A stretch of DNA of 35,124 bases from Gammaproteobacteria bacterium. Its GTDB lineage: Bacteria > Pseudomonadota > Gammaproteobacteria > SG8-11. Positions 12,927-35,026 of this stretch are shown piece after piece; position 1 is the first letter of the stretch, and every line of letters starts with the position of its first letter. The position numbers and the translations under genes are program-made. The DNA is taken from the NCBI GenBank assembly GCA_024641505.1, contig JAHECY010000039.1, forward strand, positions 1-35,124, in the 5' to 3' direction. The notes under the pieces are model-generated. The model had not been told where the DNA came from, made no database searches, and saw only the letters and a program-made list of their open reading frames with translations.

Positions 12927-13532
12927 TTAGCGCCGCATGTGCGCCCGCAGCACGTCTTCCTGATCGTGTTCTTCGAGCTGGTGGCTGATGATGCGCAGAT
13001 CATTGGCGATCTCCGGCATGATGACATTTTCCAGCGCGCGTGCGCGGCGCTGGGTGCGTTGATATTCCGCCAGCAACCGGTGCAGGTTGCCGGACAAGGC
13101 GGCAAGCACCGTATTGTGACGCGCCAGTTGCAGAAACAATTCACGGCAGGTCTCCGCTTCCGGCGAGCGATAGCTCACAATGTCCGGCGCGGTCATTTCC
13201 GGCAGTTGCAGGTCGCTGCGTATCAGATTGACACCCATAAAACGCGAACGTTGGCGCGTGATACGGGCGTCCTCCAGAAACCGGGCGGGATAGACCTGTA
13301 CACCGTGCAATCCGTGACGCTGCACCGCGGCCTGTAACGCTTGGTGCGCCTGCTCATGCAGCAGCGCGTACTGTGCCATGAGGTCTTCATAGTGGCGCAG
13401 TTGACGCAGCAGCTCCGCCGCCAGCAACAAGCGTTTCTCATCGAGGAAATCATAGGCTTCCTGCACCACAGCCTGTTCTTCCTTGAGCTGGATCAGCGCC
13501 GAGCGGGTGGCGACACGTTCGCTGCTCAACAT
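12927..13532 (-). CDS. atpD: V/A-type ATPase subunit D (central stalk)
   Basis: This encodes 201 residues, the normal length for the V/A-type D subunit, which forms the long coiled coil of the rotor inside the A3B3 ring. The N-terminal helix (ATRSALIQLKEEQAVVQEAYDFLDEKR) and the C-terminal helix (YQRTQRRARALENVIMPEIANDLRII) carry the family pattern, including the conserved RRxxALExxxxP segment. The ATG shares one base with the stop of the B subunit (TAATG), so translation is coupled. It is the last gene of the ATPase operon. Confidence 0.93.
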   Translation of the reverse strand: MLSSERVATRSALIQLKEEQAVVQEAYDFLDEKRLLLAAELLRQLRHYEDLMAQYALLHEQAHQALQAAVQRHGLHGVQVYPARFLEDARITRQRSRFMGVNLIRSDLQLPEMTAPDIVSYRSPEAETCRELFLQLARHNTVLAALSGNLHRLLAEYQRTQRRARALENVIMPEIANDLRIISHQLEEHDQEDVLRAHMRR

Positions 13533-14920
13533 TATTTCGGAGTCTCCTCACGGATGTGACGCTTGATCTGAGCGTCATTGAGTCGTGTCAGCTCCGCCGG
13601 CGGTAACTTACGCAGCAATTCCCAGCCAATGCTCATGCTTTGCTCCAAGCTGCGGGCGGCGGTCTGGTGCACCAGTTTCTGTTCGAAGTGGTCACCAAAT
13701 TCCAGGAACAACCGATCCACCTCCGCCAAACCTTCGGTACCCATGACGCTGGCGAGTACGCGTACATGGATGGCGCGGGCATAAGCGGCATACAACTGGT
13801 TGGACAGCGCCGGGTGATCCTCATGGGTATAGTGGCCGCCGGTGCCGTCTTTCATCAGACGTGACAGGCTGGGCAGGACTTTGATCGGCGGATAAATATC
13901 GCGCCGGTCCAGATCCCGATCCAGGACGATCTGACCTTCGGTAATGTAACCGGAGAGATCGGGTATCGGATGCGTAATATCATCGGCGGGCATGGTCAAA
14001 ATCGGTAATTGTGTGAGGGAGCCGGGCAGGCCGTCAATACAGCCGGCGCGTTCGAATAGTGACGCCAAATCGGAGTACATGAAGCCGGGGTAGCCCTTGC
14101 GACTGGGAATGTCACCGTGGCTGGCGGAAACTTCGCGTAAAGCCTCGCAGTAATTAGTCATGTCGGTGAGAATCACCAACACATGCCGGCCTTCGATAAA
14201 TGCCAGATATTCCGCGGCGGTGAGTGCGTAACGCGGCGTTAACAGGCGTTGAGTGCTGGAGTCGGAGGCAAGATTCAGGAACAACACGGTATGTTCCAGG
14301 GTGCCGCTGTTCTGCATCGCCTCGCGAAAACGGTCCGCGGTGTCGTAGGGTACGCCGATGGCGGCGAACACCACGGCAAAACCACCGCTGGCTTCATCGC
14401 GCAGGCGGGCTTGATGCGCGATGGCGGTGGCCAGACGATCATGTGGCAAGCCGCCGCCGGAGAACAAGGGCAGTTTCTGACCCCTGACCAGGGAGTTCAT
14501 TAAATCGATGGCGGAAACGCCGGTTTCAATGAAGTCCCGCGGCTGGGCGCGCGCCGCAGGATTGATGGACATGCCATCGATGCGTAACCGACGCACTGCG
14601 GACACCGGTGGGCCGTGATCCAGGGGGCGACCCACGCCGTCGAGAATCCGACCCAGGATATCGGGGCCAACATTGAAGTGCAGCGGTTCGCCCTGAAAAC
14701 GCACCCGGGTATCGGGCAGAGAGAGTCCGGCGGTGGACTCAAGGACCTCGACGATGATGGTGTCATCATCCAGTTCCGCGACCCTGCCCAGGCGCACGCG
14801 CCCCCGGGCGTCCACCACCTCTACCGCTTCATTGAAGCCGACATTGATATTGCGCCGCAGGTATATCAACGGACCGTCGATGCGCGTGGCGGCGCCGATG
14901 CTGGCAATCTCAGGTTTCAT
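13532..14920 (-). CDS. atpB: V/A-type ATPase subunit B (non-catalytic)
   Basis: This encodes 462 residues from the ATG at 14918-14920 with GGAG 8 nt upstream. The frame stays open to 15016, but that part lies within subunit A. Conserved segments are GPDILGRILDGVGRPLD, ETGVSAIDLMNSLVRGQKLPLFSGGGLPH (a degenerate P-loop, as expected for the non-catalytic subunit), LILTDMTNYCEALRE-type (here VILTDMTNYCEALRE) and SRKGYPGFMYSDLASLFERAG. The C-terminal arm includes GWELLRKLPPAELTRL. It assembles with A into the A3B3 head and contributes the arginine finger at the interface. It overlaps subunit A by 11 bp. Confidence 0.95.
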   Translation of the reverse strand: MKPEIASIGAATRIDGPLIYLRRNINVGFNEAVEVVDARGRVRLGRVAELDDDTIIVEVLESTAGLSLPDTRVRFQGEPLHFNVGPDILGRILDGVGRPLDHGPPVSAVRRLRIDGMSINPAARAQPRDFIETGVSAIDLMNSLVRGQKLPLFSGGGLPHDRLATAIAHQARLRDEASGGFAVVFAAIGVPYDTADRFREAMQNSGTLEHTVLFLNLASDSSTQRLLTPRYALTAAEYLAFIEGRHVLVILTDMTNYCEALREVSASHGDIPSRKGYPGFMYSDLASLFERAGCIDGLPGSLTQLPILTMPADDITHPIPDLSGYITEGQIVLDRDLDRRDIYPPIKVLPSLSRLMKDGTGGHYTHEDHPALSNQLYAAYARAIHVRVLASVMGTEGLAEVDRLFLEFGDHFEQKLVHQTAARSLEQSMSIGWELLRKLPPAELTRLNDAQIKRHIREETPK

Positions 14921-16676
14921 CGGCGTGACTCCGTTGCCGCAGTTGCGCGCACGCGGCCTCCAGATCCTGGGACAACGCGCGCAGTTGTTCCAGATGCCGA
15001 TCGTCGATGTCTTCATTCATACGCCGCAGGCGCCGCAGCACGGGCAGGGCATAAATGGCGTCCATGGGGATGTCGGCGTCGATTACCTGTAAGGTGAGAT
15101 CGATGAAGCGATCGATGAGTTGCATCATCAGGGATTGCCGTTGCGGTGAGCAGTAGCGGTCATTGTCGGAAAAGGCCGACTGGCGCAGGAAGGCATCGTT
15201 GATGATATCCGCGCACAATAATATATGCTGTTGGCGCGGCGGCAGGGCATCCTTGCCGACAATGCGCGCCATGCGTTCCAGATGGGACTGCTGTTCCAGA
15301 ATGGTGAGAAAACGCCGCCGCTGCTGCAACCAATGGGGATGATCGTGTTGCCGCCAAAAATCCACCAGTTCCTCGATATCGCCGGAATAGGATTGCAGTG
15401 GATGGATCGCCGGATAAAAGCGCGCCTGCGCCCGCGTGGCATCCAAAGCCCAGAATGCGCGCACATAGCGTTTGGTGTGTGTGGTCACCGGTTCGGAAAA
15501 ATCCGCCGATGGGGGACTCACCGCGCCAATGATGCTCAATGCGCCGGTGGCGCCTCCCAGAGTGCGCACCTGCGCCGCCCGCTCATAAAATTCCGCGAGC
15601 CGGCTGCTGAGATAAGCCGGGTACCCGGCCTCGCTGGGCAATTCTCCGAGGCGGCCTGATACTTCGCGCAGTGCTTCCGCCCAGCGGCTGGTGGAATCGG
15701 CCATCAGCGCAACGCGCAGTCCTTGATCACGGAAATATTCGGCGACGGTGACGCCCGTGTAAATACTCGCTTCCCGCGCCGCAACCGGCATGTTGGAAGT
15801 GTTGGCGATGATTACCGTACGTTCCATCAACGGGCGACCGGTGCGTGGATCTTCCAGGGTCGGTAATTCCGCCAGAACCCCGGCCATTTCATTGCCGCGT
15901 TCACCGCAACCCACGTAAATGATGACATCCGCGTCACACCACTTCGCCAGGGTTTCCTGCAAAATAGTTTTGCCGGTACCGAAGCCGCCGGGCATGGCGG
16001 CGCGCCCGCCGTTGGCGATCGGGAACAGGCTGTCCAGAATGCGTTGTCCGGTGAACAGTGGGCCGGTGGCGGCCTGGCGTTCACTGACCGGCCGGGGTTT
16101 ACGTATCGACCACCAGTGGTTCATATGAATCTCATGGGGCCGGCCGGCGGCATCTTCGAGGACGGCGATGCATTCATTGTCAAGGTAGGTGCCACCCGTC
16201 TTGATACTGGTGACGGTTCCCGACACATCGGGCGCCAGCAGACATACCTGATTGTGCCCGCCGTCTTGACGCACCGTGCCCAGACTGGCGCCCGGTGTCA
16301 GCTGTTGTCCGAGGTTTACGCCAGGTTCGAACATGAAGCGCGCCGGACGCGCGCTGCGCATACCGGGGCCGATGAATTTATCGGTGGCGTGATGCAAGGG
16401 ACGCAACAAGCCATCGAAGATGTGGCCCAGGATATAAGGTCCGAGTTTTACCGACAGCGGCATGCCGGTACCGACGACCACATCACCGGGACGCATGCCG
16501 CTGGTGTCTTCGTAGACCTGCACCACGACCAGATCCTCCTCGATACGAATAACTTCGCCGAGCAGCGCCTGAACGCCGACCAGCACCGCTTCATACACGG
16601 TGAAGGCATCCCGGGTGTGGGCGCGCAACACCGGTCCGCTGATCCAATTGATGACCGCCTGATTTCTGTTGCTCAT
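14910..16676 (-). CDS. atpA: V/A-type ATPase catalytic subunit A
   Basis: This encodes 588 residues, the usual size for the catalytic A subunit. Features are an N-terminal barrel with GPVLRAHTRDAFTVYEAV, GPYILGHIFDGLLRPL, the P-loop PGGFGTGKT (about 229-237), YVGCGERGNEMAGVL (about 254-268; E259/R260 near the catalytic site), MADSTSRWAEALRE and GRLGELPSEAGYPAYLSSRLAEFYERA. It hydrolyses or makes ATP at the A/B interfaces. The P-loop GGFGTGKT differs from the common GPFGSGKT only conservatively. The ATG overlaps the stop of subunit E by 4 bp. Confidence 0.96.
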   Translation of the reverse strand: MSNRNQAVINWISGPVLRAHTRDAFTVYEAVLVGVQALLGEVIRIEEDLVVVQVYEDTSGMRPGDVVVGTGMPLSVKLGPYILGHIFDGLLRPLHHATDKFIGPGMRSARPARFMFEPGVNLGQQLTPGASLGTVRQDGGHNQVCLLAPDVSGTVTSIKTGGTYLDNECIAVLEDAAGRPHEIHMNHWWSIRKPRPVSERQAATGPLFTGQRILDSLFPIANGGRAAMPGGFGTGKTILQETLAKWCDADVIIYVGCGERGNEMAGVLAELPTLEDPRTGRPLMERTVIIANTSNMPVAAREASIYTGVTVAEYFRDQGLRVALMADSTSRWAEALREVSGRLGELPSEAGYPAYLSSRLAEFYERAAQVRTLGGATGALSIIGAVSPPSADFSEPVTTHTKRYVRAFWALDATRAQARFYPAIHPLQSYSGDIEELVDFWRQHDHPHWLQQRRRFLTILEQQSHLERMARIVGKDALPPRQQHILLCADIINDAFLRQSAFSDNDRYCSPQRQSLMMQLIDRFIDLTLQVIDADIPMDAIYALPVLRRLRRMNEDIDDRHLEQLRALSQDLEAACAQLRQRSHADET

Positions 16677-17323
16677 GGCGTGTCCGTGTCAGGTGTTGGC
16701 ACCTGTGCCGCATGATAAGCTGCCAGCAATTGCGCTTCGATGGTCGGGCGATCCAGCAGTAAACCCGTCAGCGAACCATCAACCACGGCACCCATGGTTT
16801 GAATCAGCATGCCGGCGTCACTGCTGGCGGCATCACGCAGTTCCGGTTCCTGACCGGTCACCACGTGCACTTGTTGCGTGATGTATTGCAGGTCGGCATC
16901 GCTGTAACCGGGTGCCAGCTCAATGCGCCACTGGCTTACCGGCAGGGCTTTTGCGCCCAGATTGAGCATGTTGCCGATCCAGGCTTTGCGCGCCTGCGCT
17001 TGCTGCCAGCATTGACGCAAGCTGGTTTCCAGTTGCAGCCAGGCACTGCGCAGAAACTCCTGGTCAAGTGTATGCTGCAGTTGCTTGATGGCGGTGTGAT
17101 GCCGCGCCCGGGCGCGCGCCGTTTCCTGTTGCTGGCGCTCGCGATTGCGCGCATTTTCTTCGCGTACCTGCAGGCGAGCATCATGGAACGCGCGACGCAC
17201 AATGGTTTGCGCTTCTTGTTGCGCCTGGGTGATGATTGACTGTCGCTGTTGTATTTCAAACTCATGGACCACATCCAGTAGACGCTGTACTTGGGCGTTA
17301 ATAATGCTGGAGGGCAGGGTCAT
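16673..17323 (-). CDS. atpE: V/A-type ATPase subunit E (peripheral stalk)
   Basis: This encodes 216 residues. A long, charged, glutamine- and arginine-rich helix (about 5-110) is followed by a mixed domain with ELAPGYSDADLQYITQQV, and ends in a segment (VDGSLTGLLLDRPTIEAQLLAAY) typical of the E subunit C-terminus. It pairs with the G/H subunit to form the stator stalk that binds the top of the head. It overlaps subunit F by 4 bp and subunit A by 4 bp. Sequence conservation in this subunit is normally low, so the call rests on length, helix pattern and operon position. Confidence 0.88.
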   Translation of the reverse strand: MTLPSSIINAQVQRLLDVVHEFEIQQRQSIITQAQQEAQTIVRRAFHDARLQVREENARNRERQQQETARARARHHTAIKQLQHTLDQEFLRSAWLQLETSLRQCWQQAQARKAWIGNMLNLGAKALPVSQWRIELAPGYSDADLQYITQQVHVVTGQEPELRDAASSDAGMLIQTMGAVVDGSLTGLLLDRPTIEAQLLAAYHAAQVPTPDTDTP

Positions 17324-17616
17324 CCCAGAACTCCCAGTTGGGAGCGCAGTGCGGCGGTCAGATGCGACGCATCTACCGGGCTGCGTATATCCGGAATGAC
17401 GACGAAGAGCGGCGTTTCCTGCGTCAGGTACACCTGGAGTTGCGCCGGCGGCAGCAAGGCGGCATAGCCGGCGCTGATCATGATCAGCGATGCCTCCTGG
17501 TTGGCCCAGGCCAGGGTCTGCGCCAATTCCTCCGGCAACGGCGAACGAATGCGTGTTCCCGACAGGCGAAATCCCGCGGCACTGATGTCGTCACCGATGA
17601 ACAGCGGGGTTCTCAT
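17320..17616 (-). CDS. atpF: V/A-type ATPase subunit F
   Basis: This encodes 98 residues with the small Rossmann-like pattern of subunit F: FIGDDISAAGFRLSGTR at the N-terminus, EASLIMISAGYAALLP in the centre and ETPLFVVIPDIRSP near the C-terminus. It binds the lower part of subunit D in the rotor shaft. It lies 3 bp after the K subunit stop and overlaps E by 4 bp. Gene order F-E here differs from the more common E-C-F arrangement. Confidence 0.9.
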   Translation of the reverse strand: MRTPLFIGDDISAAGFRLSGTRIRSPLPEELAQTLAWANQEASLIMISAGYAALLPPAQLQVYLTQETPLFVVIPDIRSPVDASHLTAALRSQLGVLG

Positions 17617-17619
17617 GGT

Positions 17620-17976
17620 TCACAGTACCTTGTTTAGAATAAGGATGGAAATGATCAATCCGTAGATCGCGATGCCTTCCGCCAGACCCACCATGATCAA
17701 TACGCGACCCAGCAATTCCGGCTTCTCCGCCAGGGCGCCGATCGCGGCGCTGCCGACACCGGCGACGGCGTAACCGGCGCCCAGGGCCGACAACCCGGTG
17801 GCGAGTGCCGCCGCCACATAGCCCCAGCCTACGGACTCGGCGGTGACCGTGGTGGCGGTGGCACCGAGGGCGTCCGCCGCCATGGCCGGTGCGAACCAGA
17901 ACACGAAACTGGCAGTGATTGTCGCCAGGGCGGCGACGCCCAACAGCGCCAGCAGCTTATTGGTTATTCTTGGCAT
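17620..17976 (-). CDS. atpK: V/A-type ATPase membrane rotor subunit K (c-ring)
   Basis: This encodes 118 residues. A hydrophobic N-terminal segment (about 8-30) ending APAMAAD looks like a cleaved signal or extra helix, as in the Thermus rotor subunit. It is followed by one hairpin: helix 1 (about 53-80, glycine/alanine-rich) and helix 2 (about 90-114) with the ion-carrying E100 in GLAEGIAIYGLII. The glutamine and threonine residues typical of sodium-coupled rings (PGTQ-type motif) are absent, so proton coupling is inferred. AGGAG lies 6 nt before the ATG. It overlaps the I subunit stop by 20 bp. Confidence 0.92.
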   Translation of the reverse strand: MPRITNKLLALLGVAALATITASFVFWFAPAMAADALGATATTVTAESVGWGYVAAALATGLSALGAGYAVAGVGSAAIGALAEKPELLGRVLIMVGLAEGIAIYGLIISILILNKVL

Positions 17977-19819
17977 GGTGCGCTCCTTGTGCTGAGGATT
18001 CGGAAGTGGCGGGTGCGGTCAACGGCTCAAAAATACGGCCGGTGCCTTGCAAAAAGCGAATAAAAAATTCAAACAATACCAGGCGTGTTGTCTGAATGGA
18101 GACTACCAGTCCCTCCAATACCAGTACCACGATGTTGCCGGTGACGATGATAAGCAGCTGCGCGAATAAATTGGTAGTGGCTTCAGCCAGGGTCGTGACT
18201 GCCAGGGACAATCCCGCGTGCGCCAGCGCGAAGGCGCCGATGCGCACAAAGGACACGGTGTTGATTAGCAATTGCATCATGCTTTCCAGCAAGTGCCCCA
18301 CCGCCGCGCCCAGGGTCTTCAGGTATTGGTGGCCGCCGGCGCAGAACAAGCTGCCCGCCAGATACCAGAGTACGCAAAAAGCCGCGACTAACAGCGCGCG
18401 CGCGTCATAAAATATCAGAAGCAAGCTGACATAAATGCCGATCACCGCCGCTTCCACCTGCAACCATGGCCAGAGCTTACCGCGCCAGAAAGCCTGAACG
18501 CCATTCAAGGTCAACCCCAGTATCAAGATCGCAATACCGCCGAGCATCGGGATAAACAATACCGGCAGGGCGGAAGTCATCGGATTGATCCACAACGGCG
18601 TCACCAGATGTTCCATGCCGAAAACACTGCCGAATACCCAGCCAAAAAACATCGAGGCCAGTCCGCAACTGATGAACAGACCCATGATCGGCCAGCGTGC
18701 GCGCAACGTCAGACCCGCCAGCAGCAATACCAGCCCCTGGCCGATATCACCGAACATATAGCCGAACATCAGTGGTACCATCAATACCAGAATGGTTGAC
18801 GGGTCCAGTTCATCCCGCGCCGGCGTGCCGAGCATGCGCGCGAACAGTTCGAATGGACGCGACCACCAGGGGTTGTGCAGCACCATGGGCGGGTTGTGGT
18901 CCATGGGCGTACCGGGAAAGTGCAAGGCGGCCCGCAGTTGTGATTTTTCCAGGGCACGCTGCAGTTGATCGCCGGTCAGGTCGCTGGTCCATCCCGTGAC
19001 CCAGGCGAAATTTTCGGTTACCGGCAAGTCACTGACGTGAGTGAGAAACCACTCCAATTGACGAATATCCCCCAACACCTGTGGCAGGGAATGGTGCGCG
19101 GCCAGTGCCGACAATTGCGCATTGCCGTGCCGGATATCGGTGGCGAGCTGCTGCAATCTTTCCGCAACCATTTGGCCCGCGTGTCGGGCGTCACCCTTGA
19201 TCCAGGCGGGCAAGGGCAAATGCCTGCCTTTGACCAACGCCAGATCCTTTTCCAGTTGTTGGATATCATCGGGCAAACCGGCTACCACCAGGAACTGGTT
19301 CTCTTCGCCGGTAACGGGTATTACCAGCAGTGCCGGTGGCATGTGGGCGATGCGGCTGCCCAGGGGCAAAATATAAATCCGCGCCAGCACATTGGGACCG
19401 CTGCCGGTGAGCAGGCCGAAATCCAGGACGTCCGTGCTTGCCGCGCTGAGCATCTGACGCAGACGTTGTAAATCCGCTTGCTCGCCCTGGCAGGTCTCCA
19501 GTTGCGCGAGCACCGGGTCCGCGGCGTGTTGCCAGGCGCGGAGTTTCTCCAATGCGTGCTGTAAGCGGGTGTCGGGACGTTCGGGCACGCCTGCAGCGGG
19601 TAACTCCGCCGGTGGCCAATAACGTTGGTAACGGTTAAGTAATCGGTTGTATTCCTCAAAGCGGTCGCGCAGATCCGGCATCACCGCCTGACGCGTGGTG
19701 CGGCTTTGCGCTTCCAGCTGGATGTTGCCGGTATGCGCCAATATTTCCACGGCGCGCACCAGATCCTCGCGGGTGGTGAGCAACTCGAACCAGCGAGCCG
19801 GTACCGGACGCAAGCTCAT
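17957..19819 (-). CDS. atpI: V/A-type ATPase membrane stator subunit I (a)
   Basis: This encodes 620 residues, typical for bacterial subunit I. The soluble N-terminal half (about 1-330) forms the collar arm. The membrane half has roughly seven to eight helices, beginning STILVLMVPLMFGYMFGDIGQG (about 342-363). The essential arginine of the ion path is R526 in SFVRIGAFALAHAG. The subunit holds the K ring and forms the ion half-channels. Its ATG overlaps the stop of the upstream C-like gene (ATGA). There is a short hydrophilic tail rich in Ser, Ala and Asn. Confidence 0.94.
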   Translation of the reverse strand: MSLRPVPARWFELLTTREDLVRAVEILAHTGNIQLEAQSRTTRQAVMPDLRDRFEEYNRLLNRYQRYWPPAELPAAGVPERPDTRLQHALEKLRAWQHAADPVLAQLETCQGEQADLQRLRQMLSAASTDVLDFGLLTGSGPNVLARIYILPLGSRIAHMPPALLVIPVTGEENQFLVVAGLPDDIQQLEKDLALVKGRHLPLPAWIKGDARHAGQMVAERLQQLATDIRHGNAQLSALAAHHSLPQVLGDIRQLEWFLTHVSDLPVTENFAWVTGWTSDLTGDQLQRALEKSQLRAALHFPGTPMDHNPPMVLHNPWWSRPFELFARMLGTPARDELDPSTILVLMVPLMFGYMFGDIGQGLVLLLAGLTLRARWPIMGLFISCGLASMFFGWVFGSVFGMEHLVTPLWINPMTSALPVLFIPMLGGIAILILGLTLNGVQAFWRGKLWPWLQVEAAVIGIYVSLLLIFYDARALLVAAFCVLWYLAGSLFCAGGHQYLKTLGAAVGHLLESMMQLLINTVSFVRIGAFALAHAGLSLAVTTLAEATTNLFAQLLIIVTGNIVVLVLEGLVVSIQTTRLVLFEFFIRFLQGTGRIFEPLTAPATSESSAQGAHHAKNNQ

Positions 19820-20589
19820 GGCGTGAGTTCCCCCGGACCTGGAAACAGGCAGCGATGCATGACATCGCCCCGTAATCGCTCACAATCCAGCGCCACCAGT
19901 GCCAGATGGACGAACAATGCGGCCGGATGAAAGCTACACCGGCGAAACAGGTATTCCAGACGCCGGCGCAACGTATCGCGTTCCGGCCAACCGCGCGACG
20001 CTGGCAATTGCGCAAACGCGACCTGATGCCGGATGAGCATGTCGAGCACCTGTTGCAACTCGGCATAGCCGCCGGGGGCGCGTCGTGGCCACAGGCGTTG
20101 CCAATGTTCCAGCCACGCGGCCAGCAACGGGGTATGCTGCTGCCAGGCGTCGACCAGGGGCGCATAGATGGATAGCTGCAGTGTTTGCAGCCGTTGTTTG
20201 TGGTCGATGACCGTGAAATTCTTTAACCGCGGATCTTCCAACATCCAGCGCGGCACTGTATTGCCCTGCAATAAGAATTGCACCACGGGCAGATCCACCA
20301 GGCATTGCACCCAAAGTATCGATTGCCGCCAGGGGCGCGCCAACCACCAGGTACTTTGCTGTACATAGTCATGAAATTGCCTGACCAATATGCTCTCCAG
20401 GCGATGCGGTGCGTCGGTGCTGTGCAGGCCCAGTACCCAGGGACGTAACGCCGTGCGCCGCGCCAGTTGCAGGTATCCACCCAGATCCCGCTGGCCGGCC
20501 AACTGTTGCCACACGGCAGCTTGCGGGCGCAGACCATGGCGCAGTTGCACCCGGGTTTGCATATAGGCATAACTGCCGATGGCTTTCAT
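19816..20589 (-). CDS. Probable V0D/AC39-family subunit C of the V/A-type ATPase
   Basis: This encodes 257 residues, shorter than the usual 320-350 for subunit C. The start (SYAYMQTRVQLRHG) fits the YxYxxARVRxL-type opening of the family. The rest is helical, rich in Trp, Arg, Leu and Gln, without membrane spans. In the family, subunit C is the cone that couples the rotor shaft to the K ring. Position between the stalk gene and subunit I and tight coupling (7-bp gap upstream, 4-bp overlap downstream) support the call. The sequence is divergent and short, so identity rests mainly on context. Confidence 0.65.
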   Translation of the reverse strand: MKAIGSYAYMQTRVQLRHGLRPQAAVWQQLAGQRDLGGYLQLARRTALRPWVLGLHSTDAPHRLESILVRQFHDYVQQSTWWLARPWRQSILWVQCLVDLPVVQFLLQGNTVPRWMLEDPRLKNFTVIDHKQRLQTLQLSIYAPLVDAWQQHTPLLAAWLEHWQRLWPRRAPGGYAELQQVLDMLIRHQVAFAQLPASRGWPERDTLRRRLEYLFRRCSFHPAALFVHLALVALDCERLRGDVMHRCLFPGPGELTP

Positions 20590-20596
20590 TTGGCGC

Positions 20597-20923
20597 TTAC
20601 TGACACAACGTGGAAGTCAGGGTTGCGACTGCCGCCGCCACGTGCCGGGCGGAAATCTCCTGCCCGCTTTTTGCCAATTCGCCGCGGGTTTGGGCCGCGA
20701 AGTGTTCCGCCGCCGTGGCAATGGTGAGATTGCATTGCTGGTCCAGGCGGGCGATGCGGTTGCGGGCGCGTTCATCGATGCGTTGCGCCTGCTGATGCGC
20801 GGTGGCGAGGATGGCCGCCGCTTCCTGCCGGTACTGTGCGACGCTGGCATTAGCTGCCTGTTCGGCTTGCAGTACCTGCTGAATCGCCTGTTCCGTGCTG
20901 ACATCCCCGGATGCGTCTTGCAT
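20597..20923 (-). CDS. V/A-type ATPase peripheral stalk subunit G/H
   Basis: This encodes 108 residues from the ATG at 20921-20923, chosen because GAGAGG lies 8 nt upstream; a GTG at 20930-20932 would overlap that site. It is almost entirely alpha-helical and rich in Ala, Gln, Arg and Glu (AEQAANASVAQYRQEAAAI, AHQQAQRIDERARNRIARL), as expected for the helix that pairs with subunit E. A central stretch contains one Cys. It is the first ATPase gene of the operon, 33 bp after the hypE stop. Confidence 0.8.
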   Translation of the reverse strand: MQDASGDVSTEQAIQQVLQAEQAANASVAQYRQEAAAILATAHQQAQRIDERARNRIARLDQQCNLTIATAAEHFAAQTRGELAKSGQEISARHVAAAVATLTSTLCQ

Positions 20924-20956
20924 TGTGTTCACCTCTCAACGTTGTTGTCAGGTTTA

Positions 20957-28174: not shown

Positions 28175-29221
28175 TCAGCTAAGAGACGCCAGTTCCAGAG
28201 GTCTTGCGGTTACCGGTGCGTGGATCTGGTTCACCGGCGCGGCAGTGGTGCCGGCGATTTCAAAAGGATCGGTGTGTATGTCCTTGAGGTTGGCGCCGGC
28301 CAGAAACGCTTTACGCTTGCAGGCGCGTACCATATTCGGATTACCGCACAGGAACACGCGATAACCTTTCAAATCTTTGTGGGTTGCCAGCGCCACGTCG
28401 GCGGGCGAGCCGATACTGTAGCGCGCGCTGTGTGCTTCCGGGTCGGCGACGCAGGGCGTGTAGGAAAAATTCTCGTGGTGTTTCGCGTAGGCTTCCAATT
28501 CCTTGATCAGATACAGTCCCATGGCATTATGGCTGCCATGATACAAGTGTATCGGTCCCCGGTGCCCCTGCAATAACGCATCCTTGGTCACCGCCAGCAG
28601 CGGCGCCAGACCGGTGCCGGTGCCAACCAGCAGCAGGGGTTGATCGAGACTGCTGGCTTGATAGTAACAATCCCCATGGGGCCCGTTCAGGGTCACGGTA
28701 TCCCCTCTGTGGACCTTGGTCGCGAGCCATTCGGAAATCTTGCCTCCGGGGATGATGCGAATATGTAATTCCAGGTAGGCTTCACCCAGGGTGGCGCTGG
28801 CGATGGAATAACTGCGCACCGAGCCATCAGGGCCGTAGAGATTGATGAACTGACCGCCACGGAACAACAGGGTTTCGCGGGGCGCCAGACGCAGGCGCAG
28901 GATATCGGGGCGGAGTTCCGTTTTGTCCACGACCGTGGCGCTGATCGTGGGCGAGATGACTTCGTCGGGTAGTGCAACTTCCAGGTCTTCCCCGGGTTTG
29001 CACATGCAGGCGAGAAAATACCCTTGCTGCTTCAGGCTGTCGCGCAAACCTTCTTGCGCAGCGGCGGGTGGTGTTCCGTTCACGGCCTTCATGGTGCAGG
29101 TTTGACAGACACCACTACGGCAAGATGAAGGGACGGCGGCGCCTTGCCGAGTCAGCGCATCCAGCACTGACTCGGCCGGGTCCACGTGGTAAGTGTGATC
29201 CCGAAACGTTATTGTCGGCAT
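28175..29221 (-). CDS. Ferredoxin-type NAD(P)H oxidoreductase (2Fe-2S, FAD, NAD domains)
   Basis: This encodes 348 residues. An N-terminal plant-type ferredoxin domain has cluster ligands C34, C39 and C42 in CRSGVCQTC and C72 in FLACMC. The flavin domain (about 90-190) has RSYSIAS (136-142) and a GGKISEWLA loop. The NAD(P)-binding domain starts LLLVGTGTGLAPLLA (about 196) and contains FLCGNPNMV (about 298-306). This layout is that of the reductases of phenol, toluene or methane monooxygenases. Here the only neighbour is the truncated haemoglobin gene, 25 bp upstream and co-oriented. The likely job is to pass electrons from NADH to the haemoglobin (inference). The C-terminal 35 residues are a loosely structured tail. 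Confidence 0.9.
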   Translation of the reverse strand: MPTITFRDHTYHVDPAESVLDALTRQGAAVPSSCRSGVCQTCTMKAVNGTPPAAAQEGLRDSLKQQGYFLACMCKPGEDLEVALPDEVISPTISATVVDKTELRPDILRLRLAPRETLLFRGGQFINLYGPDGSVRSYSIASATLGEAYLELHIRIIPGGKISEWLATKVHRGDTVTLNGPHGDCYYQASSLDQPLLLVGTGTGLAPLLAVTKDALLQGHRGPIHLYHGSHNAMGLYLIKELEAYAKHHENFSYTPCVADPEAHSARYSIGSPADVALATHKDLKGYRVFLCGNPNMVRACKRKAFLAGANLKDIHTDPFEIAGTTAAPVNQIHAPVTARPLELASLS

Positions 29222-29246: not shown

Positions 29247-29630
29247 TTACCGGTCTAATACGTCGTTACGAACTGATTCCGCGATCGCGGCGACTTCCTG
29301 AATCATGTCGCCACTGACGCCCAGTTCGGTCAATACTGCCGCCAGGTTTTCCACGACTGCGTCAAAATGTGTATCGTTCAAGCCGCGTTTGACCAGATGT
29401 TTGTGGCCTTCACGCATGTCCCTGCCGCTGTAATTGTTAGGACCGCCGAAAGCGAAAGTCAGAAACGCTTTCTGTTTGGCAGCTTGCTTGTCCATATCCA
29501 CGCCTTCGAAGAACGAGCTGATTCGATCATCAGCAAGAACTTTACGATAGAAAATATCAACAGCGGCATCAACCGCGGCTTCGCCGCCAATACGTTCGAA
29601 CAGCGGGGTTTCAGCAAGATTCGCACCCAT
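29247..29630 (-). CDS. Group I truncated haemoglobin (GlbN/trHbN type)
   Basis: This encodes 127 residues. It starts LFERIGGEAAVDAAVDIFYRKVLADDRI, contains FLTFAFGGPNNYSG and REGHKHLVKRGLNDTHFDAV with the proximal haem histidine at H76, and ends VAAIAESVRNDVLDR. The match to cyanobacterial GlbN is good along the whole length. Group I proteins bind O2 and NO, and several act as NO dioxygenases when supplied with electrons. AGGAGA lies 8 nt before the ATG. It is the first gene of a two-gene operon with a 2Fe-2S flavoprotein reductase, and its promoter is flanked by NsrR-like sites. Confidence 0.93.
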   Translation of the reverse strand: MGANLAETPLFERIGGEAAVDAAVDIFYRKVLADDRISSFFEGVDMDKQAAKQKAFLTFAFGGPNNYSGRDMREGHKHLVKRGLNDTHFDAVVENLAAVLTELGVSGDMIQEVAAIAESVRNDVLDR

Positions 29631-29695: not shown

Positions 29696-29718
29696 AAAAT
29701 ATATCTGAAATACATGTT
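29696..29718. promoter_or_regulatory. NsrR-like operator, promoter-proximal site
   Basis: This is an 11-1-11 inverted repeat. The right half AAATACATGTT matches 9 of 10 informative positions of the NsrR half-site AAATGCATNTT, and the left half AAAATATATCT matches 7 of 10. It covers the expected transcription start of the haemoglobin operon. No nsrR gene lies in the window. Confidence 0.5.
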
Positions 29719-29722
29719 CGGC

Positions 29723-29751
29723 ATTAGACCATCAAGGGCATTGCATGTCAA
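29723..29751 (-). promoter_or_regulatory. Sigma70-like promoter of the haemoglobin-reductase operon
   Basis: On the minus strand TTGACA (29746-29751), a 17-nt spacer and TCTAAT (29723-29728). The -35 is perfect and the -10 matches five of six. The start should be near 29716, giving a leader of about 85 nt. Confidence 0.75.
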
Positions 29752-29753
29752 CA

Positions 29754-29776
29754 AAATAGTATTTTAAATGTATGTT
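29754..29776. promoter_or_regulatory. NsrR-like operator, upstream site
   Basis: This is a second 11-1-11 inverted repeat. The right half AAATGTATGTT matches 9 of 10 informative positions and the left half AAATAGTATTT matches 7 of 10. It begins 3 bp upstream of the -35 element, so the promoter lies between two similar sites. Confidence 0.45.
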
Positions 29777-29919: not shown

Positions 29920-30004
29920 CAATAGACCGCCTTTTATATCGTAATCGTCTTAAGCAGTTCTTAGCGGATTGAACCGATTATTATCTCACTCAATGGAGGA
30001 ATCT

Positions 30005-33557: not shown

Positions 33558-33748
33558 CCCTAGTGTAGCGCGCATGCAGTTTTGTTACAGAATTTGCGCC
33601 TGCGCCTGCGTTGTGCATGTAAACGGCGTTCATCGCTGGGGGACGCAAGAACCCACAGGTGCCATCAACGGGCAAGTTTCCTGTTTTCTTTTGGCTGGCG
33701 AGCTGTAGAATTGAATTTTTACATTTCGCTGCTTGCGATTCACAAAGG

Positions 33749-35026
33749 ATGGTTTATTTCGCTATGGCTATTTCCTGCGCGCGTTTGACCCTGGTCTGGC
33801 CGATCCTCGTCTTTCTCAGCACCGCCGCCATTGGCGATGATGATGCCGCCGCCGACCGGCGCAAGGATCAATTTCCAACAAGTTATGGCTATCTGCTGGC
33901 GCCCTTGCCGTATTCTGTTCCCGGTATCGGCGAAGGAATGTTTATCCTGGGGTCATTCACCAACGTATTCGGTACTACCACGGACCCGACCCTGGTGTTG
34001 ATCACCGGTGACGCCCAGGGTGAAGGAGCGTTTTTCGACGAGCTGCCGTTGTATCCCGAACATCTGTTCCTGCGCACGGAGTTTCTCAACATCAGTGCCG
34101 CGGCGGTGAATAATTATGAGAGCAGGGGTATGGATACCGGTAAGAATGACTACAACCTGTTGCAGATCTCACGGTACCAGGAGCGGAATTTCGGGCTGGA
34201 TCTGGCGTTTTTAAACCGGAAAATAATGCTGTCCGTAACCCGCGATCAGAACCGGGGCGATCTGAACAAAATTCGGGATGCCAAGGGCAATATCATCGAT
34301 GATCTTGCCAGCCCCTATCGATTCCGCAATAAATCATGGCAGTGGGCGGCGCAACTGGACATGACTGACGATTATCTCGATGCCCGCAAAGGTGTACGGA
34401 TCAATCTGCGCTATCAAAACAACCCGCCGCAGAGTAGTAATGAAGCCGACTACTTCGTGACCGAAGTCAACTCCTTGTTTTTTGTGCCAACCTTCGGGGA
34501 GGATACCCTGGTGTTGAATTATTTTCAGTCCGACGCCAATGTGCGCAAGAAGGGGAATATCGACCGGGCGGCTATCACTCAGGAGTTGGGTTTCAACTGT
34601 CCAGTGGATAATGTCGAATGTTTGTACGCCGAGTCGCATCTGGTGGATGTCATCAGCAATCAGCGGCGTTATGGCACGGCGTCCTCCCTTGGCGGCGACA
34701 ACCGGTTTCGGGCATTTCCGCAGGGGCGCTTCAACGGCGCTCACGTATCCTTTATCGGCGCGGAGTACCGTATGAACTTCGTTCGGGAATCCACGCCGTT
34801 TAATTTTTATATTTGGCGGGATGCCCATACCGGCTTCCAATTGGCTTTTTTTACCGAATTTGCCACGGTGTCGGAAACCTGGGGTGATTTATGGGATGAT
34901 TCCCGGTTCGTGCAAGGCGTGGGAGTGCGCCTGGTCACCAAGTCCGGCAGCGTTTATCGGGCGGATCTGGGCGTGAGTGACGAAGGCGCCGAACTGAGCG
35001 TGTTCTTCTATTATCCCTGGGATTGA
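33749..35026 (+). CDS. Outer-membrane beta-barrel protein, Omp85/BamA-superfamily-like, without POTRA domains
   Basis: This encodes about 425 residues from the ATG at 33749; ATG 33764 is equally possible, and no start has a good ribosome site. The frame opens at 33659, but that extension is less credible. A signal peptide (ARLTLVWPILVFLSTAAIG) is followed by a mature chain with many alternating beta strands and no helical POTRA repeats. Near the C-terminus, SSLGGDNRFRAFPQGRFNGAHVSFIGAEYRMNF resembles the (V/L)RGF-type loop and following strand of BamA-like barrels. The last strand, VFFYYPW, has aromatic residues, but the chain ends in D. The function is not known; a role in lipid or protein handling at the outer membrane is only a guess. 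A terminator follows. Confidence 0.7.
   Translation: MVYFAMAISCARLTLVWPILVFLSTAAIGDDDAAADRRKDQFPTSYGYLLAPLPYSVPGIGEGMFILGSFTNVFGTTTDPTLVLITGDAQGEGAFFDELPLYPEHLFLRTEFLNISAAAVNNYESRGMDTGKNDYNLLQISRYQERNFGLDLAFLNRKIMLSVTRDQNRGDLNKIRDAKGNIIDDLASPYRFRNKSWQWAAQLDMTDDYLDARKGVRINLRYQNNPPQSSNEADYFVTEVNSLFFVPTFGEDTLVLNYFQSDANVRKKGNIDRAAITQELGFNCPVDNVECLYAESHLVDVISNQRRYGTASSLGGDNRFRAFPQGRFNGAHVSFIGAEYRMNFVRESTPFNFYIWRDAHTGFQLAFFTEFATVSETWGDLWDDSRFVQGVGVRLVTKSGSVYRADLGVSDEGAELSVFFYYPWD

Follow-up and report, generated by a model that had tools for sequence, protein, structure and literature searches.

Two candidate NsrR-type operators flank the promoter of a truncated haemoglobin and reductase gene pair in a gammaproteobacterium

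What decides when a gammaproteobacterium makes a truncated haemoglobin (trHb) and the reductase encoded just after it? The question is raised by a 35,124-base stretch of DNA, hereafter the window, in which such a gene pair lies downstream of a promoter with an inverted repeat on either side. Our answer is that this promoter region very probably controls the pair as an operon for NO detoxification, under an NsrR-family repressor, with repressor binding and induction by NO predicted from the features described below. Because likely NsrR sites flank the haemoglobin promoter, the NO scrubber would probably be made only when NO is present. The coordinates of the features are collected in Table 1.

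Table 1. Features of the trHb–reductase locus; positions are those of the window.
Feature	Position	Strand	Details
Group-1 truncated haemoglobin (trHb), cyanoglobin-like	29247..29630	-	PF01152; best solved matches are cyanoglobins
Reductase, 2Fe-2S, FAD and NAD domains	28175..29221	-	25 bp after the trHb gene
Proximal NsrR-type operator (candidate)	29696..29718	-	AAAATATATCTGAAATACATGTT; 16/20 to consensus; spans the expected transcription start
Distal NsrR-type operator (candidate)	29754..29776	-	AAATAGTATTTTAAATGTATGTT; 16/20 to consensus; ends 2 bp from the -35 box
-10 box TCTAAT	29723..29728	-	6/6 kept in congener; no A at position 2
-35 box TTGACA	29746..29751	-	Perfect hexamer; 6/6 kept in congener

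The two genes presumably share one transcript. As an orthologue set we used the best 80 trHb relatives in one genome collection (the closest of at least 80 in total), and at 62 of these 80 loci trHb is followed by a codirectional gene for a reductase homologue; of the remaining 18 contigs, a few stop shortly past trHb. Numbering the B, E and F helices of the window protein by aligned cyanoglobins and the customary globin numbering, we find Tyr B10, Gln E7, Lys E10, Gln E11 and His F8, all identical in 80/80 of the best orthologues, an identity that may be favored around E7–E10, which one of the six trHb search peptides covers. Lysine is known as a distal haem ligand from Chlamydomonas THB1 (works cited in PMC7082302). 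By its haem-pocket residues the window trHb fits a group-1 NO dioxygenase; NO dioxygenase activity and electron transfer are both predicted.

The original prediction had placed two 11-1-11 inverted repeats resembling the NsrR motif at 29696–29776. Both are there, each 23 bp long and each matching 16 of the 20 informative positions of the NsrR consensus AANATGCATTTNAAATGCATNTT; the best other score against this consensus in the whole 35,124-base window is 14. Between the repeats, on the minus strand, lies TTGACA-17-TCTAAT (29751–29746 and 29728–29723). Its description as a near-consensus promoter holds for the spacing and the perfect -35 hexamer but was oversold for the -10 hexamer, which matches at 5 of 6 positions and is without the A at position 2, and the absence of this A explains why a promoter scan did not report TTGACA-17-TCTAAT. 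The placement of one repeat on the start site and of the other against the -35 box proved accurate: the proximal repeat begins 4 bp past the -10 box, over the expected start point, and the distal repeat lies 2 bp from the -35 box. Against the published core gATGyAT-N5-ATrCATc, the proximal site scores 11/14 and the distal site 9/14, making the distal site the weaker of the two. The case for these putative operators rests on the 23-bp motif and on conservation.

Sites of this quality are rare by chance. Dinucleotide shuffling of the 250 bp upstream, repeated 20,000 times, gave one site scoring at least 16 on 26 occasions and two such sites on none. To score the sites by matrix, we used 45 distinct sites 5′ of trHb orthologues, with congener L008 left out (the matrix contains no sequence from the window's genus), and applied the matrix to 22 pattern matches and 97,708 bases of the window's own genome. 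The proximal operator scores 29.7 bits and the distal operator 22.4 bits, with roughly 0.0005 and 0.07 such sites, respectively, expected per genome; these expectations, computed for 4.78 Mb at the single-base composition of the genome, understate what AT-rich DNA would give. By the same matrix, the proximal site ranks 1st and the distal site 6th among the 22 pattern matches of the genome. A degenerate pattern, AANATRYAT-N5-ATRYATNTT, was composed after the sites and orthologues had been seen, and the matrix sites were chosen with it. Allowing up to two mismatches, it occurs at 21 places in the genome, against 11 for its reversed control, so about half of the genomic matches are due to chance; the proximal site is the sole match with zero mismatches, to a motif devised after that site was seen. 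The concern that the repeats might do no better than random AT-rich DNA is answered by their scores, which exceed those of both shuffled and composition-matched DNA.

The sites recur upstream of orthologous genes. By the AANATGCATTTNAAATGCATNTT consensus, 28 of the 80 best orthologue upstream regions score at least 16; shuffling yields about 0.1 per 80, and the reversed motif none, its top score being 14. With the degenerate motif, 52 of the 80 upstream regions reach 14/16 (about 0.4 per 80 when shuffled; 2/80 for the reversed motif). Among these best 80 orthologues, the site-bearing loci range over many Gammaproteobacteria and some Betaproteobacteria, and include methanotrophs. The congener keeps 21/23 positions of the proximal operator, 17/23 of the distal operator and all six of each promoter box, within DNA that has diverged around the operators (8/17 positions kept in the spacer, 22/60 upstream and 43/83 downstream). 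This congener locus, L008, probably comes from the same genome as G003, since the upstream DNA and the NsrR position agree. Within the family, the trHb site is present in four of five genomes, namely the window's own, G003, G002 (22.3 bits) and G004 (28.6 bits); none was found in G001.

If NsrR controls the operon, the genome should encode it, and as the original prediction expected, it does contain NsrR-family homologues, two in number (C94 and C8). These score 138.5 and 118.9 bits, respectively, against the NsrR model, both under the NCBI curated cut-off of 182. Of 49 related genomes, 43 have a match to the model, and every match is below 182 bits, which suggests a cut-off tailored to enterobacterial NsrR; we file C94 and C8 as NsrR-like rather than as certified NsrR. 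The iron–sulphur cluster of NsrR is bound by three cysteines and Asp8. All four residues are kept in C94 and C8 when aligned with the Streptomyces coelicolor protein (5n07). Neither nsrR gene adjoins the operon in the window genome, and at the thresholds used neither has a site in the flanks examined. The second gene, C8 (G000:C8:26249-26632, L089), is a paralogue of C94; within the family of five genomes, the congener alone showed a close relative of it (L136). Two NsrR-model matches also occur in 6 of the 49 other genomes.

Linkage to nsrR provides a further line of evidence. At 37 of the 80 best loci, a divergent nsrR gene of the C94 type (closer to C94 than to C8) lies within 0.8 kb of the trHb gene; in 3 of the other 43 loci, linkage is not visible in the less than 450 bp of upstream sequence. 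By the degenerate motif, the site is present at 35/37 nsrR-linked loci versus 17/43 others (Fisher p = 1e-7). The presence of NsrR was tested for the genomes of 50 of the 80 best loci, and the site occurs at 34/44 loci whose genome has an NsrR versus 0/6 of those in whose genomes, of unstated completeness, no NsrR was found (Fisher p = 5e-4). Both p values are too small, because the loci are related (many are from Methylobacter). At 10 of the 44 NsrR-bearing loci, no site was found at the threshold used; one step looser, the counts become 38/44 and 1/6. With the AANATGCATTTNAAATGCATNTT consensus at 15/20 or better, the site is found at 26/37 nsrR-linked loci versus 10/43 others, and at 25/44 loci with NsrR versus 0/6 without. 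One family genome, G004 (L122; 78% complete), has a strong trHb operator at 28.6 bits, yet no NsrR was detected in it. The candidate site is conserved 5′ of orthologous genes and associated with nsrR.

Could the repeats nevertheless be chance palindromes in AT-rich DNA that no regulator reads? The upstream DNA is AT-rich, the matches to the published core are just 11/14 and 9/14, and the 21 genomic matches of the degenerate motif stand beside 11 for its reverse, but the shuffles, the reversed motifs, conservation, linkage and position all counter this reading, and we find it scarcely credible. That the proximal repeat alone is an operator, and the distal repeat a by-product of AT-rich promoter DNA, is doubtful but a real possibility. 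As this reading would have it, only one site passes the threshold in many orthologues, and the distal repeat matches the published core at only 9/14 positions; against it stand the 22.4 bits of the distal site, a score for which base composition predicts about 0.07 sites per genome, the 0/20,000 upstream shuffles with two such sites, and the congener, which keeps a distal site at the same place with 27.1 bits by the matrix.

Two further alternatives accept the operators and dispute their reader or their target. The stretch SRNHLVKVVHHL, which we take to be a putative recognition helix, is common to C8, its congener relative L136 and several trHb-linked NsrRs. The congener yielded only the C8 type, the C94 type not being found in a genome that is 79% complete, and Paracoccus denitrificans is described (PMC5588039) as having two NsrR homologues with separate predicted targets. 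It is conceivable, though in our judgment unlikely, that in the window's genus a real operator is read by C8, or by C8 and C94 together. C94 is nearer than C8 to the trHb-linked NsrR at 37/37 loci, and in a tree it falls within the trHb-linked group, with C8 and L136 outside (99/100 support; long branches, midpoint root); moreover, the incompleteness of the congener genome weakens the argument from its missing C94 type. The sites might also, or instead, serve the divergent acireductone dioxygenase gene (PF03079; start near 30,000), with which the trHb gene has a common intergenic region of about 340 bp. We consider this very unlikely, as the sites flank the trHb promoter and lie at least about 190 bp from the dioxygenase gene, and at 37 of the 80 best loci the upstream neighbor is nsrR instead, 35 of these having a site.

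We therefore return to NsrR control of the haemoglobin operon. An NsrR-family repressor, most likely C94 and possibly its paralogue C8, would sit on the start-site operator, helped by the weaker operator against the -35 box, and RNA polymerase would be blocked. NO would attack the iron–sulphur cluster and NsrR would let go, whereupon trHb and its reductase would be made; trHb would use O2 to convert NO into nitrate, and its haem would be brought back to the ferrous state by the reductase. The candidate sites, their conservation, the nsrR linkage and the haem-pocket residues can be read from the DNA itself, and the steps of this scheme are what they suggest.

Several other sites in the genome resemble NsrR operators. 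One of 16/20 and 24.0 bits (G000:C84:21941-21963, L098) lies 32 bp upstream of iscR, and the congener has a weaker site, 17.4 bits, upstream of its own iscR (L141); iron–sulphur cluster assembly may possibly come under NO control via this site. A 25.6-bit site (G000:C141:11000-11022, L112) precedes an H-NOX gene by about 101 bp; the H-NOX site is also found in the congener (L131, 22.4 bits), and none was found at the H-NOX relative in G004 (L132). A third, of 17/20 and 22.8 bits (G000:C111:13917-13939, L113), comes 61 bp before a multicopper oxidase gene, which is followed by a cytochrome c gene and then, across a 437-bp gap, by a NirK-like gene whose product scores below the curated cut-off. 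At 1e-30 the multicopper oxidase of this run finds no match in the congener; its matches in G001 and G002 are partial. No site was found in the examined flanks of the two nnrS genes, or, at the thresholds used, in those of a second trHb gene (C28). We rejected three other candidates: the site at a cytochrome c′ gene (C133:50570) is at chance level (14.1 bits, about 4.7 expected), the site at C128:43168, at 22.7 bits, has no counterpart in the congener, and at C166:14913 a 17/20 match falls within an open reading frame and reaches 10.5 bits.

The arrangement of operator and promoter differs between the window's genus and most of its site-bearing relatives. In 43 of the 52 site-bearing loci, a TTGACA-like -35 (at least 5/6) is found 16–18 bp before a hexamer in the -10 position; this hexamer opens one base ahead of the operator, whose left arm forms the -10 in these 43 loci, and it reads TAAGAT, TAACAT or TAAAAT in 32 of them. 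In the window's genus, by contrast, the operator starts 10 bp after the start of the -10 box rather than 1 bp, a downstream shift of about 9 bp, and a second operator stands upstream, behind the -35 box. In Methylobacter a weaker second site often follows 54–77 bp downstream, the usual distance being 65 or 66 bp, and many orthologues have only a single site at the threshold used. From this comparison of spacings, an operator over the promoter is general, and the two-operator bracket is seen only in the window's genus. Bracketing had been put forward as a typical repressor layout; it is seen in the window's genus, but most site-bearing relatives have the operator over the -10. We tentatively suggest, with the odds against it, that a widespread NO-dioxygenase module (divergent nsrR, Lys-E10 trHb and separate reductase, with an operator doubling as the -10) was rewired in the window's genus: nsrR would have gone from the locus, a second NsrR paralogue would be present, the operator would have moved downstream by roughly a turn of the helix, another would have been added behind the -35, and the regulon would extend to the H-NOX NO sensor and the isc iron–sulphur operon.

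NsrR control of the trHb operon would be a further case of a known kind, since Rodionov et al. (2005, PMC1274295) predicted that NsrR controls glbN-lpg2536 of Legionella pneumophila, encoding a cyanoglobin and a ferredoxin reductase, for NO oxidation. Gardner (2012, PMC3820574) repeats this prediction. The two systems are alike in having an operon for a cyanoglobin-type trHb and a ferredoxin reductase behind an NsrR site, with the same NO-oxidation role proposed; they are unlike in that glbN-lpg2536 is the sole NsrR target in Legionella, whereas the window genome has bracketing operators and further candidate targets. More broadly, the NsrR motif gATGyAT-N5-ATrCATc, often with nsrR beside a globin gene, is described from proteobacteria and bacilli, and in Bacillus subtilis predicted tandem NsrR sites overlap the mapped hmp promoter (PMC1274295). 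The window operon resembles these NsrR–hmp systems in regulator family and motif, and in that nsrR often adjoins the globin gene, but its globin and reductase are separate proteins and its globin is truncated, not a flavohaemoglobin. The 17/20 site 5′ of the NirK-like gene run recalls Nitrosomonas europaea, where nirK is an NsrR target (PMC1274295; PMC2844404), although in the window genome the NirK run lies apart from the trHb operon; nirK of Nitrosococcus oceani is reported to be without the NsrR motif (PMC4103548). In the literature searched, seen partly as excerpts and with subscription journals scarcely covered, we recognised no experimental test of an NsrR-controlled truncated haemoglobin.

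Elsewhere in the window, 13532–20932 on the minus strand holds an apparent V/A-type ATP synthase cluster, here in a gammaproteobacterium; the comparison with models covered its subunit I homologue. At 33659–35026 on the plus strand, a 455-aa open reading frame has no Pfam match.

With these results the 2005 prediction, made for a single species, widens to a pattern conserved across many Gammaproteobacteria and some Betaproteobacteria, including methanotrophs. For bench work the system offers clean targets in its compact promoter, its two candidate NsrR proteins and its Lys-E10 haemoglobin, which has a reductase partner encoded alongside. How methanotrophs and nitrite-reducing bacteria deal with NO may matter for the emission of nitrous oxide.
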